Source: Allomyces arbusculus (taxonomy: Eukaryota; Blastocladiomycota; Blastocladiomycetes; Blastocladiales; Blastocladiaceae). From it: DNA of 64,000 bases. The stretch covers positions 62,001-126,000 of the forward strand of contig JADHYV010000038.1 of assembly GCA_027604705.1 (NCBI GenBank), read 5' to 3'. Each line of letters starts with the position of its first letter. Within the stretch, counting starts at the first letter, position 1. The notes under the pieces were generated by a model, which was not told the origin of the DNA, searched no databases, and saw only the letters and a program-made list of their open reading frames with translations. A program made the translations under genes and the position numbers. Positions 31,258 to 36,853 of the stretch are shown piece by piece.

Positions 31258-32954
31258 TTACTCATCGACGCCCATGTCGTCGTCGTCCTCGCCCAACTCG
31301 GCGCGCGGCGCCTCGAACCCGTCATCGGCCATGTCGTACCCACTGCCGAGATCCAAATCATCCACATCGGCATCATCAAACTCATCGACCATCGTCAATG
31401 CATCAATCGCCTTGTGCACGCGCACGAGCCCGGCCTTCCACGCATGCAAGTCGGCCAGCAGCCGCTCCCAGTCGGCAACCGTGAAGTGCGGTTTGAACGC
31501 GGACGTGAGCGTAAGCGTCTTCTGAATCCCGTCGAGCTTGCCCTCAATCACGCCGTTCGCGACCGCCGAAATCGCGACCGCCTCGACATCGCGCGCGTCC
31601 TGCACCCCCATGTCCTTGGCGATCGTGGCCAGCGGGACGGGCGTGCCGAGCGGCAACGTCGTCAAGTAGAGCTGCCGGACCTTGCCGAGCGCCGCGGCCT
31701 GCAGCGCCGCCGGTGCCGGGAGTGCCTTGACGTTGGCTTTACTCGCGAGCGTGGCCAGATCCTTCTCAACCGCCTTGTACCCGAGCAAATCGCCGTGAAC
31801 GTACGCGGCCAGGAGCTTGTATGCGGCCGACCCGGAGACCGCGGCGGCAGCGGGGGACACGAACGCCGGCGACAGGTCGAGGACCTTGGTGGGCGGCGCG
31901 AGCCCGGCCAGGACGGCACGCGTCAGGATGGGCTCGACGGCGGCCTTGTCGGCCTTACCGGCGTCAGCGAGGTAGTTGAGGTGCGCGACGAGCGCGGTGA
32001 ACGCGTCCTCGAAGAGACCAGCGGCTAGGTACTTTTCGTCGATGAGGGAGAGGAGCGTCGTCACGTCGGCGGTGGAGACGGCCCACTGCGCGGCCCAGGT
32101 CGGGACATGCGCGACCGATGCGGCCAGCGCCTTGAGCTCGCCGTGCTTGGCGGCGCTCTTGACGATGGCCGTGTAGAGCGTCAGGCGCACGGGCGAGGTC
32201 GCGGCGGCAGCGTTGAAGGCGTGCGTGAGGCTACAATGCGGAGCAGAATAGTGAATTCACGGCATGGTCGGTCGGTTCCACGCTAGTGGGGCCAACATAC
32301 AGCTTGAGCTTCGCGACACCCTTGTCGACATTCGCGTCCTCGATGCTCTTGGCGATCCGGCCCAGCAGATCAGCCTCGAGCTTGTCGTCGCCTGCAGCCG
32401 TCACGTTCACAAGCGCCAGGAGTAGTGCGAAAAAGCCCTCGACTTGTGTCTCCGGCACGTTCAGGATCAGACCAGCCTCGGAGCAGTAACCCCGGACCAG
32501 GTCGGTCGTCGACCCGGACTCGACGGCAGCGCGGGCCTCGGCCACGTAAGTGTCCTCGCTGCCGTCGTCGCGCGACGAATCCCCATGCAGCTTCGAGACG
32601 ACGGCCGAGTAGGACAGCACCTAAGATGGGCGCGAGGGTGGGTGATCAGGGCGCGTGGTTGCGGCGGCGGCGGGTGGGCGCAAGAGCGTGCGCGCGGCAT
32701 GGGGTGGTGGTAAGGGCAATCCGGCGCGTCATGGAAGGCCTCGTGGTTGTGGCGACGCGTCTTGTCGGTCCGTGGCACAACGAGCGGCATTTGGCCATGC
32801 CCCGGGATGTGGCAGATCCATATCGGTATCGCAGCGGTCCATGACGCGTCGTTATTCCCCACCCACCCATACGCCGTGGCCGCGCCTTACAAAGGTGGCC
32901 ACGCACCAAGTCGGCATCCGAGGCGTTCACAAAGGTCGCCTTGAGGACGGTCAT
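31258..32954 (-). CDS. EIF3M: Translation initiation factor eIF3 subunit m
   Basis: PCI-domain subunit of eIF3. Exons 32907-32954, 32301-32620 and 31258-32230; introns 32621-32906 (GTGCGT...TTAG, 286 bp) and 32231-32300 (GTATGT...TGTAG); total 446 aa with all phases consistent. Landmarks: KLKLLTHAFNAAAATSPVRL, equal to the LQLLSNLFHGMDKNTPVR region of animal eIF3m; LPAPAALQAAALGKVRQLYL; PLATIAKDMGVQDARDVEAV, the winged helix of the PCI domain; the C-terminal WERLLADLHAWKAGLVRVHK; and an acidic fungal tail (DDADVDDLDLG). Exon 1 codes for only 16 residues. The gene is convergent with the MAPR gene and divergent from the EF-hand/CAP-Gly gene. Confidence 0.93.
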
Positions 32955-33206
32955 GGTGGCGAGCTGGAGAAAAAGGTGGTGTAGCTTGCGTTTCGCAGGC
33001 GCTCTTGCAGGCAGTCGTGTTGTGTCAGCTGGCCGCCGTCGTCGTGGGCGTCGTCGTGAACGTCGTCGTCGCCAACGAGTCGGAGCGTCGCGCTCGATCA
33101 CTGTTTCGCACCGCGGCTATCTCACGCGTTTGCACGTGATGCATTGCCATGCGAATTTGTCGGCCAGATCGTGCTCTCTCGCTGCGATTTTGAACAGCAA
33201 TCCACT

Positions 33207-34589
33207 ATGGGCAACACTGAGTCGGCCAGCACGCCCGTCGACAATGGCAGTAGCGCGCAACTGCCCGCATTGGAACCAGCTGTCGTTGCCAAGCACTGCT
33301 CCGAATATGACCGTGAGTTGGGCCAGATTCCGACCAGCACCATGCTCCAAACCATCGCGACCACTCCTTCGATCGAAACCCCGCTGATCGCGCCAGTCGT
33401 TTCGATCCCCAGTTACGCCGGCCGAAATCCTCTTTGCCTACCAAGCTCACGCAGCGCTCGTACAGGCCGCGCTCGCAGATCAGGACGGCCTCCTTGCCAG
33501 GGTACTTGCCGACCCGACCGTTTGCACGCCGTTTGGCCAAGTTGCACGTTGTTGATTGACAGATGATGATGATGCTGGCGCGCTGCCGCAGGCGTGCGAG
33601 CTCTTGTTCAACGTCGAGCACATTTCGTTTGTGCAGTACCTGAAAATGATCCAGTGGTGGCACACGAGCCCGCAAATGTCGAAGCTGCAATGTGCGCAGA
33701 TTGTCGATGCAATGCTTGCGCTCGCGGCTGCGTCTCCTAATTGGCTCTCATGTAGACGTGTTCAATTTCCTCGACTGGGATAACGACGACTTTGTCACGC
33801 CTAAGGACCTCATGACCGTGCTGCCCAAGCTGCTCGGTTCGAGATCGGTATTCTTGATTCTTCATCCCTCGAAGGTGACCGTACACCTGACGTTCGGCTC
33901 GCACCGAGTAGTTTCAGGTCGACGCCGATGTGTGCATCACGACCACGGGCCATCGGGGCGTCGTGCGTTACGTCGGGCCCACGTCCAAGGGTGCGGGCGA
34001 CTGGCTTGGGATCGAGCTCCATGCACCAGGTATGCGCTCTTGCGCTTCGTTCGCTTTTTCCGCCATGAACTTTCCTCCTGACTTGGATTTGGATTGTAGT
34101 CGGGAATAGCACCGGTGCGCTCAAGGGAAAGCAGTACTTCTCGTGCCCACCGAAGCACGGCACATTTGTTCAACCTGCAAAGTGCATCGAGGTTCGTCTC
34201 TCTCACTTGACTCGGCTGTTTGCGACTGGACGACTCACGCATCTCGCTTGATCCCACAGTGGTCGACCATCGAGTGGATCGCCGCCATTTTCGAACAGCT
34301 CCAGGGCCAGCCTGACGTGGTCAAGCTCAGCGAGGATGGGTTCACGATCCCGCGCACCGGGTCGGTGCGCATCGGATGGGACCAGTTTGCCCAAGTGACG
34401 TCGGCTGATCCGGCCGTGACCAAGCGGCTCGTACGATGGTTTTTCCCTCTACCGCTCCGCATGGGCGAGCCGTTGCCCGTTGCCATGGCGCGCGCCGCAT
34501 CGCCGGCGGGCACGGTACCGCTCACGGCGGCTGATGTGGATTCGGCTGCGGGAGCAGGAGTAGAACGCGGCCCGGTTGCAACCGGCTAG
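33207..34589 (+). CDS. EF-hand calcium sensor with CAP-Gly insertion
   Basis: Seven exons: 33207-33312, 33413-33540, 33592-33691, 33756-33847, 33918-34029, 34100-34191 and 34260-34589. All junctions are GT-AG and the phases agree; 319 aa. The start MGNTESAS has a myristoylation-type Gly2. Residues ~30-142 follow the calcineurin B/NCS plan: LTPAEILFAYQAHAAL, DPTVCTPFGQ-ACELLFN, HISFVQYLKMI, then KLQYVFNFLDWDNDDFVTPK with a near-canonical EF loop. Residues ~143-211 are a CAP-Gly domain (GHRGVVRYVGPTSKGAGDWL, GALKGKQYFSCPPKHGTFVQ), with GNSTG in place of the usual GKNDG. The C-terminus returns to an EF-hand lobe: IEWIAAIFEQLQG and WDQFAQVTSADPAVTKRLVR, similar to the last lobe of NCS proteins. 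A stop in the CAP-Gly frame just upstream of 33918 argues against a separate CAP-Gly gene. Possible role: calcium-regulated microtubule-end binding. Confidence 0.75.
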
Positions 34590-35012
34590 CAGGTGGGGAC
34601 TGGGTTGCTGTCGCGGACTTGAGCAGGTTTTGATGGACTGGAATTACATTTGATTTGATTAAACGAGCAACATTCTTTCCGCTCCCTTGATAGGCACGCC
34701 AACTGGTCACATTTTTGAACCGCTGACCGCAAATGCTCTTCAGATTGATGTGATCCATGTTTCTTGCATGAAGCACGACTTCGCGGTTGGGGACCATGGC
34801 GAGCTTTGGTTTGCCCTGCCATTTTGCCTGGCTGGCTGTTGCTGGCCCTCCGCGCCAACGATCCGCTCCATTCCCTCTCTCTTGTTGGTATTCGTGCTCG
34901 TCCTCCACCTTTCTGAGAACTCATCAGGATTAGCCGTGAAGCTGCAACACAGCCGTCGACCAAGCACGCTCGACGACAACCACCGGAAAATCAGCACGCC
35001 CGCCCCCGCCCC
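34590..35012. other. Intergenic, promoter of MLYCD
   Basis: No gene seen. Confidence 0.45.
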
Positions 35013-36853
35013 ATGGCCACGAGCGTGATCCGGCCAGTCCTGGCCCCGCGCCTCCACCTGCTCCGCCACCTGACGCACTTGCGCAGCACGCCGCTGCTGC
35101 TCGTCCAATTTCATCGGCACCGGTCAAGCCGGACGTTCACGGCATTGGATCAGACTCGCTGCGCCGTCATGACCATCGACCCGTCGACAAGGTCGCTGCA
35201 CAGCGGAACGCAAGCCGATGCTCCTGCCACGATCAGTTCCTACCAGGTTCACCTCGTCGACGACCTGGTCCGGTCGCTCGAACGGATTGGGTCGTTTGCG
35301 ATGACGTCCATGTCGGACCCGTTGAGCGTCGAGGACGATCTCGCGCAAATCCGCACGCTGTACCGTTCGCTTGACCGGAGTGCAAAACTCGGGCTCTGGG
35401 AGCAAGGTATTGGCCACTTTTGATGGGTGGACAAGATGGAGCGGGAATTGATGAGATAGTACACTGTTTGTAGAGGTGTCGGTGCGCACGCTCGCCAAGG
35501 TCGCAAAGCTGCTCGCGCAGCAGCCGTGGGGGCTCGATTTCTTAATTCAAGTGCGCGGTGACTTGCTGGTACGATAATAGTCCTTTCGGTCACGGCATTG
35601 GAGGAGTGATTAATGCAAACGGATTGTGTAGACGACGATGCGATCGCGCTCCGCCAGCTCGCCGCCGTCACTGCAGACAGCAATCAACGTGCTGAAACGG
35701 CAAATCCAGACGTCGCTTCTTCCCGGACTTCAGTTTGTCCAGTTGTCGCGCAGCTCGAGCGATGAGCTGAAGCGCAAGGTGCGACATCGGCGGTCCCTTT
35801 TGTTCCTACTGCCTACGCGACGCAGTGAGTGCAGTGAGCAATTTCCGAAACTAACGCCGTTTCTCTCCACCAGATCATCCAATATGAGACGGTCCACCTG
35901 ATGAAAACCACCGACGACCTCGACAAGCGGCTGCAACGGTACCGGCTCATCTACGCCTACCTGCACCCGCGGCTCGCCGACCCGATCGCCTTTTTGCAAA
36001 TCGCGCTGACCCCCAACCTCGCGGGCTCGGTGCAATCGATTCTCAACGACGCGACCGCCAACGAGCCCATGGATCCCCCGCCGACGGCCGCCATTTTCTA
36101 CTCGGTCAACTCGACGATGCGCGGGCTCGCGGGTATTGATATGGGCTCCCGCATCATCAAGGCCGCAGTCGCCGACTTGCAAGTCCACCATCCGTCGGTC
36201 ACGGTGTTCTCGACCTTGTCCCCAATCCCGTCGTTGCGTGCGTGGATGCAGTCGACGCCGCCGACGCGCGGAAGCGGGCCGCGGCGAGCGGTGGTCGGCG
36301 CGGTAGCAGAGCCGTACGGGCGGTGGGAGGCCGTCGGCGCGATTTTGCCGGCCTCATTGCGCGAGGCGGTCGTGCGGCATTTCGGGTCGCTGAGCAAATT
36401 TGGGAAAATGGTGAATCAGGGGAAGTGGGTGCATGATCCGGCACAGCGCCGGTTTGTGCGCGCGGTATTGACGCCGATTTGCAAGCAGTACGTTTTCTCA
36501 GCGTGTGAAGTCAAGTGGTGGAGAACGTACGCACAAGCTCACTCTGTTGGGGGTTACTGTAGTTATTTGCTCAAAGTGCGCAACGACCCGGTCGAACGAT
36601 TCCATTTGGGGAACGGAGCGACGCTGTTGCGGTTGAACTGGCTTGGCGATTTATCACGTGCGTGGATGCTGTTTCCGTTTCTTCGCTCTTCGCGGCGCAT
36701 GCTTGACTGACTGACTTTGTGGTGCTCACTTTAGCCAAGGGACTGTCGCAGTCGTACGGATTCATGGTGAACTACTGGTACGACTTGCCGAACCTCGAGG
36801 CCAATGCCCGCGCGTTCAACCGGGGACGAGGCACGGTCGTGTCCAAGCTGTAG
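35013..36853 (+). CDS. MLYCD: Malonyl-CoA decarboxylase
   Basis: Converts malonyl-CoA to acetyl-CoA and CO2. Six exons: 35013-35406, 35474-35568, 35632-35778, 35874-36487, 36563-36657 and 36735-36853; all GT-AG, 487 aa. Landmarks shared with animal MLYCD: KLLAQQPWGLDFLIQVRGDL, the helical MKTTDDLDKRLQRYRLIYAY, LADPIAFLQIALTPNLAGSV, AIFYSVNSTMRGLAGIDMGS, VTVFSTLSPIPSL, ERFHLGNGATLLRLNWLGDL and YGFMVNYWYDL. The N-terminus (VLAPRLHLLRHLTHLRS, Arg/His/Leu-rich) looks mitochondrial, and the last three residues are SKL, a textbook PTS1 peroxisomal signal, so dual localisation is predicted as in mammals. No frame problem. Confidence 0.95.

Follow-up and report, generated by a model that had tools for sequence, protein, structure and literature searches.

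The window, by which we mean the whole 64,000-nucleotide stretch analysed here, comes from a eukaryotic genome of 25.9 Mb that comprises 197 contigs. At 33207–34589 on its forward strand lies a predicted gene that encodes both an EF-hand and a CAP-Gly domain (Table 1). Its neighbours are ordinary: on one side is a gene on the opposite strand that we take to be eIF3m-like, with a PCI score below the cut-off, and on the other is the gene for malonyl-CoA decarboxylase. The original prediction had described seven exons of agreeing phase and a product of 319 residues, and both were rebuilt exactly from the exon coordinates. The 319-residue chain runs from an MGNxxS start through one EF-hand and a full CAP-Gly domain to a last exon of 109 residues. 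In all seven exons the frame of the model has the top coding score of the six frames, a result that is partly circular, bearing in mind that the exons were chosen as open in that frame.

Table 1. Exons and introns of the EF-hand/CAP-Gly gene, its neighbours, and two related genes elsewhere in the genome (window positions, unless a contig, C, is named)
Feature	Position	Strand	Evidence or remark
eIF3m-like PCI protein (presumed)	31258–32790	-	PCI 19.5 bits, below cut-off 22
Exon 1: MGNTESAS...	33207..33312	+	spliced model; start 33207 in 17/24 bootstrap gene models
Exon 2: LTPAEILFAYQ..., CTPFGQ	33413..33540 (end uncertain: 33540, 33501 or 33519)	+	in 6/24 bootstrap models
Exon 3: ACELLFNVEHISFVQYLKMIQWWHTSPQMSKLQ, EF2-like, without metal loop	33592..33691	+	8.4 nats, highest of the six frames; residues 87–140 matched by the CIB profile
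Exon 4: EF3, with Asp12 in its loop DWDNDDFVTPKD, followed by LPKLLGSRS	33756..33847	+	EF-hand_6 17.6 bits; CIB profile
Intron 4, phase 0, EF-hand part to CAP-Gly part	33848..33917	+	acceptor 33917, or 33911 adding FQ
Exon 5: CAP-Gly domain, first half	33918..34029	+	Pfam CAP_GLY
Exon 6: CAP-Gly domain, second half, GNSTG for GKNDG	34100..34191	+	Pfam CAP_GLY; alignment with six domains of the same genome
Intron 6, phase 0, CAP-Gly part to exon 7	34192..34259	+	donor 99th, acceptor 95th percentile
Exon 7, 109 aa	34260..34589	+	best of six frames, 11.6 nats; fold models low-confidence
Malonyl-CoA decarboxylase	35169–36853	+	213 bits
TMC-channel gene	C5: about 258120–262200	-	1261 aa predicted, long low-complexity N-terminus
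Ordinary CIB (calmyrin) gene	C13:447857–448563	-	176 aa predicted; EF3 and EF4 recognisable

The locus was modelled with our own gene finder, which combines a three-periodic coding model with learned splice matrices and intron lengths. Its training drew on the remainder of the window plus loci of the same genome, with 32601–35000 and loci overlapping the gene held out; the training set comprised 81 genes and 194 introns, with a median intron of 78 bases. The finder also yields recognisable genes for what we take to be calmodulin, calcineurin B, centrin, TBCB and TBCE, loci that belong to the training set; for the predicted TBCB gene, the Ubiquitin_2 and CAP_GLY domains were checked. We also observed that the predicted introns carry the donor consensus GT[AG]CG and not the usual GTAAG, with C at +4 in 75% and G at +5 in 81% of the 194.

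Exon 2 has an ambiguous donor: the site at 33541 ranks at the 30th percentile and that at 33502 at the 99th, yet it is the former that preserves a CIB-like TPF..LLF stretch. This exon possibly represents a degenerate EF1 region; many gene models do without it and take exon 3 as 33563–33691. At intron 4, the donor lies at the 86th percentile, the acceptor at 33917 at the 72nd and its alternative at 33911 at the 95th, and these splice signals are weaker than those of introns 5 and 6.

The EF-hand part and the last exon

One EF-hand is recognisable in the 319-residue chain, at the loop DWDNDDFVTPKD, with an EF-hand_6 score that lies below the Pfam cut-off of 25. At position 12 (-Z) of this EF3 loop there is an Asp, which is also the residue found in all five CIB proteins that we compared (CIB1, CIB2, CIB3, CALM-1 and the ordinary CIB of this genome), whereas the calcineurin B of the same genome has Glu at that position, a clear EF4 and no CAP-Gly domain. 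Where calcineurin B would combine Glu12 with four EF-hands, the chain examined here has Asp12 and a single recognisable EF-hand. Passages of PMC6107761 attribute an Asp at EF3 position 12 to all four CIBs and link it to Mg2+ binding. Further evidence was derived from a profile of four CIB members, which scores 21.1 bits on the part of the chain that precedes the CAP-Gly domain, a value that none of 2000 shuffles equalled.

Other comparisons leave room for a different origin, namely that the EF-hand part comes from the calmodulin, calcineurin B, NCS or calaxin branch and not from the CIB family, a reading to which we give a substantial chance, short of even. Smith-Waterman scores do not separate CIB from calcineurin B, which, like the NCS proteins, is a member of the same EF-hand superfamily: the EF part reaches 67 against the calcineurin B of the same genome and 62–65 against the four CIBs. 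When the EF part was compared with solved structures by phmmer, no match was significant; the list is headed by calmodulin (E 0.061) and a calcium-dependent kinase (0.073), ahead of CIB3 (0.087) and CALM-1 (0.12), with calcineurin B (0.74), CIB2 (0.77) and CIB1 (0.99) lower. On the other hand, the CIB matches span long stretches of the EF part (75–155 for CIB3, 35–141 for CIB1) and so cover more of the query, and the Asp at EF3 position 12 argues against a calcineurin B origin. It is because of this Asp that we lean slightly towards CIB (calmyrin) descent. Besides the EF2–EF3 profile match and Asp12, the chain shares with the CIB family (CIB1–4 and C. elegans CALM-1) an MGNxxS-type start, and TMC, the animal partner family of CIB, is present in this genome. 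It departs from that family in the CAP-Gly domain that follows EF3, in having no recognisable EF4 metal loop, and in an added C-terminal tail; in a hand alignment, the intron positions near EF3 are not identical in the ordinary CIB gene and the EF-hand/CAP-Gly gene.

The original prediction had read this region as a calcineurin B/NCS-like N-lobe with an EF loop. The EF-hand and its loop stand, while the family may be CIB instead. Similarly, its wording 'calcium-regulated' is too narrow: since PMC6107761 connects the Asp12 of CIB proteins with the binding of Mg2+, the putative regulation is better phrased as calcium- or magnesium-dependent.

A 'Gly2/Ser6' arrangement is a myristoylation motif. 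The predicted N-terminus, MGNTESAS, fits it, as had been claimed; nonetheless, of the 24 bootstrap gene models 6 include exon 2 and 17 begin at 33207, so that an N-terminus of the myristoylation type is probable and not certain. According to the part of PMC11900603 drawn on here, CIB1 and CIB2 are both myristoylated, and a calcium-myristoyl switch operates in CIB1 but not in CIB2; such a switch therefore cannot be assumed for the EF-hand/CAP-Gly chain.

The last exon was said to encode an NCS-like lobe, an assignment that receives no backing from its sequence or its predicted fold. Against the CIB profile exon 7 scores -2.4 bits, a value matched by 494 of 2000 shuffles; no EF-hand was detected in it by Pfam, by phmmer, or by profiles of CIB, calcineurin B, calmodulin and centrin (a set without an NCS profile). 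When folded alone, it gives low-confidence models (mean pLDDT 52 and 68) in which a helix, strands and two further helices are followed by a low-confidence tail, and the comparison of these folds with solved structures returned nothing convincing, with no EF-hand among the matches listed. In exon 7 we found no functional EF4 metal loop of the kind that CIB proteins have close to their C terminus. The modelled order of helix, strand, helix and helix would nevertheless suit a degenerate EF4 remnant, which we consider possible. The more ambitious proposal of a CAP-Gly domain nested within a calcineurin B/NCS fold is not supported by these results: only the EF2–EF3 part is recognisable, the Asp12 is typical of CIB proteins, and exon 7 is without a detectable EF-hand.

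The CAP-Gly domain and its cassette

CAP-Gly domains usually bind microtubules. That the window encodes a full domain of this type, as originally described, is borne out by a Pfam CAP_GLY score of 77.2 bits against a cut-off of 26.5. We compared it with six other CAP-Gly domains of the same genome (there were eight matches, two of them being the halves of the window domain). All six carry GK[NH]xG, whereas the GKNDG motif reads GNSTG in the window domain, which alone is without the Lys of that motif. The window domain also has a Lys where five of the six have Phe and the TBCE-like one has Gly. With the domains of CLIP-170, p150Glued, TBCB and TBCE it shares the CAP-Gly core; it differs from these proteins in GNSTG, in Lys for Phe, in its EF-hand partner and in the shortness of the protein. 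According to passages of PMC9062740, the K and N of GKNDG contribute to the binding of EEY/F and to the tracking of microtubules. With GNSTG in place of that motif, the EEY/F-tail binding that had been ascribed to this domain becomes less likely, although it may still take place.

These losses might signal decay, in which case the gene would be an EF-hand paralogue that captured a CAP-Gly domain and from which selection has since been lifted. In keeping with that account, EF1, the EF2 loop and EF4 are unrecognisable, GKNDG is gone, and the coding score is low: among the other 26 predicted genes of the window, 23 outscore this one, which also tells against the explanation preferred below. We nevertheless judge decay unlikely, for 319 codons run without a stop through seven exons whose splice sites are usable, and both the CAP-Gly core and the EF3 loop are retained.

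Another feature of the locus concerns the introns that flank the CAP-Gly domain: the one that precedes exon 5 and the one that follows exon 6 share phase 0, and a module bounded in this symmetrical manner can be inserted or skipped without a break in the frame. The sequence thereby suggests that the CAP-Gly domain was gained as a two-exon cassette. Phase 0 is, however, common here (26 of the 69 introns in window predictions that score >30, both strands), so that we read the symmetry as suggestive only. The point of insertion follows EF3, where CIB1 exceeds CIB2 and CALM-1 by four residues. Alternative splicing that omits the cassette from some transcripts, so as to produce a 251-residue EF-hand protein beside the long form, would join 33847 to 34260 in frame; it would also require a 412-base intron, whereas predicted introns measure 63 to 168 bases (5th–95th percentile; finder maximum 250), and nothing else suggests skipping, which we therefore hold to be improbable, a little more so than decay.

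The genome has a further CAP-Gly fusion: in a gene predicted at C15:399170–402379, a CAP-Gly domain (83 bits, C15:400670–400879) is combined with a domain of the cyclophilin type, which scores 27.8 bits against a cut-off of 21.7, and one long open exon contains all of the former and part of the latter.

Joining of the EF-hand and CAP-Gly parts

The main model of the gene finder is a single gene that extends from 33207 across the EF-hand, the CAP-Gly domain and exon 7; it skips exon 2, uses the acceptor at 33911 and introduces a split into the last exon, after 34514. Forcing exon 2 into the model lowers the score from 21.9 to 21.4 nats, a cost of only 0.5 nats. The EF-hand, the CAP-Gly domain and exon 7 were joined in all 24 bootstrap trainings, and none of 400 dinucleotide shuffles of 32601–35000 yielded any gene. 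When intron 6, which splices the CAP-Gly part to exon 7, was forbidden, the cost was 14.2 nats. Forbidding intron 4, the splice from the EF-hand to the CAP-Gly domain, cost 7.7 nats, and the best parse then still had a remnant of the CAP-Gly domain linked to the EF part through another splice; the exact position of the junction is for that reason less sure than the fusion itself.

A stop upstream of the CAP-Gly exon had been cited as a sign that this exon cannot begin a gene of its own, and that stop is real: the CAP-Gly frame contains three stops within the 60 bases upstream of the exon, and of the ATGs in 33700–34029 only that at 33750 is in this frame, where it precedes all three. That two neighbouring or overlapping genes, one for an EF-hand and one for a CAP-Gly protein, were wrongly joined by eye is very unlikely: the splice signals of the joining intron 4 are middling, but when the locus was cut into two genes in four ways, the highest score was 2.1 nats against the 21.9 of the fusion, every bootstrap model is fused, and the three stops lie directly upstream of a CAP-Gly exon that has no usable ATG between 33700 and 34029.

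The claim that EF-hand and CAP-Gly occur in one chain is thus well supported by the gene modelling, and the predicted fusion gene with its unusual domain pair is probably real. Computation supports a single chain, its CAP-Gly domain and EF3 loop, and the symmetry of the intron phases; CIB descent, attachment to a membrane, the ligands and a role in the flagellum or the zoospore are inferred.

A candidate adaptor in a TMC-bearing fungus

The explanation that we prefer, and to which we give about an even chance when it is taken as a whole, is that a single gene of a blastocladiomycete-like zoosporic fungus encodes an EF-hand protein, by a slight preference a diverged CIB (calmyrin) paralogue, that would have gained its CAP-Gly domain just behind the third EF-hand, on a cassette of two exons with a phase-0 intron on either side. 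The product would most likely be a small adaptor. Its EF-hand half, perhaps attached to a membrane through an N-terminal myristoyl group, would bind a helix belonging to a membrane partner or to a signalling partner, and would respond to Mg2+/Ca2+ through EF3, and its CAP-Gly half would hold a second ligand, which may be a microtubule-associated protein or some other peptide and, given the loss of GKNDG, perhaps not the EEY/F tail itself. A flagellar role for the protein is possible, the genome having the look of a zoosporic blastocladiomycete.

We found no description of one chain with an EF-hand and a CAP-Gly domain in the literature that was searched, to which most subscription journals did not belong, and no relatives in two collections of prokaryote and virus sequences, an outcome expected either way; unannotated eukaryotic relatives may well exist. 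If the fusion alone is real, the domain combination is still undescribed as far as searched.

The genome has one TMC match (PF07810), besides the ordinary CIB gene. Zoospores are without a cell wall. Fungal TMC genes are reported, in the part of PMC7003098 that we used, from Rozella and Blastocladiomycota alone, in single copy; the TMC match, together with the rhodopsin and guanylyl cyclase domains described below, thus points to Blastocladiomycota. In animals, the mechanosensory TMC channels have CIB proteins as subunits on the cytoplasmic side, and the route by which force reaches the channels is debated (PMC7343241, in part); for C. elegans, passages of the same source describe CIB proteins that link TMC-1 to ankyrin, as a proposed tether, and excerpts of PMC9605866 describe CALM-1 as holding the TMC-1 channel from the cytoplasmic side. 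A CIB-like protein with a CAP-Gly domain in a fungus that bears TMC invites the idea of a tether, in which a CIB-type subunit of the TMC channel would have a CAP-Gly hook of its own and would tie a mechanosensory channel of the zoospore to microtubules. In C. elegans a separate ankyrin is bound to CIB, whereas the fungal tether would reside in one chain. We regard this role as the longest shot of all the readings considered. If a CIB-like protein with a CAP-Gly domain does stand beside TMC and an ordinary CIB, evolution would have joined a sensor directly to a cytoskeletal domain, and a fungus with these three components would offer a simple test system.

Rhodopsin-guanylyl cyclases are reportedly present in Catenaria. 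They also occur in Blastocladiella and Allomyces. This genome has two places, C7:515350–516887 and C15:369892–371433, where a guanylyl cyclase domain comes after a rhodopsin domain, as in rhodopsin-guanylyl-cyclase genes.
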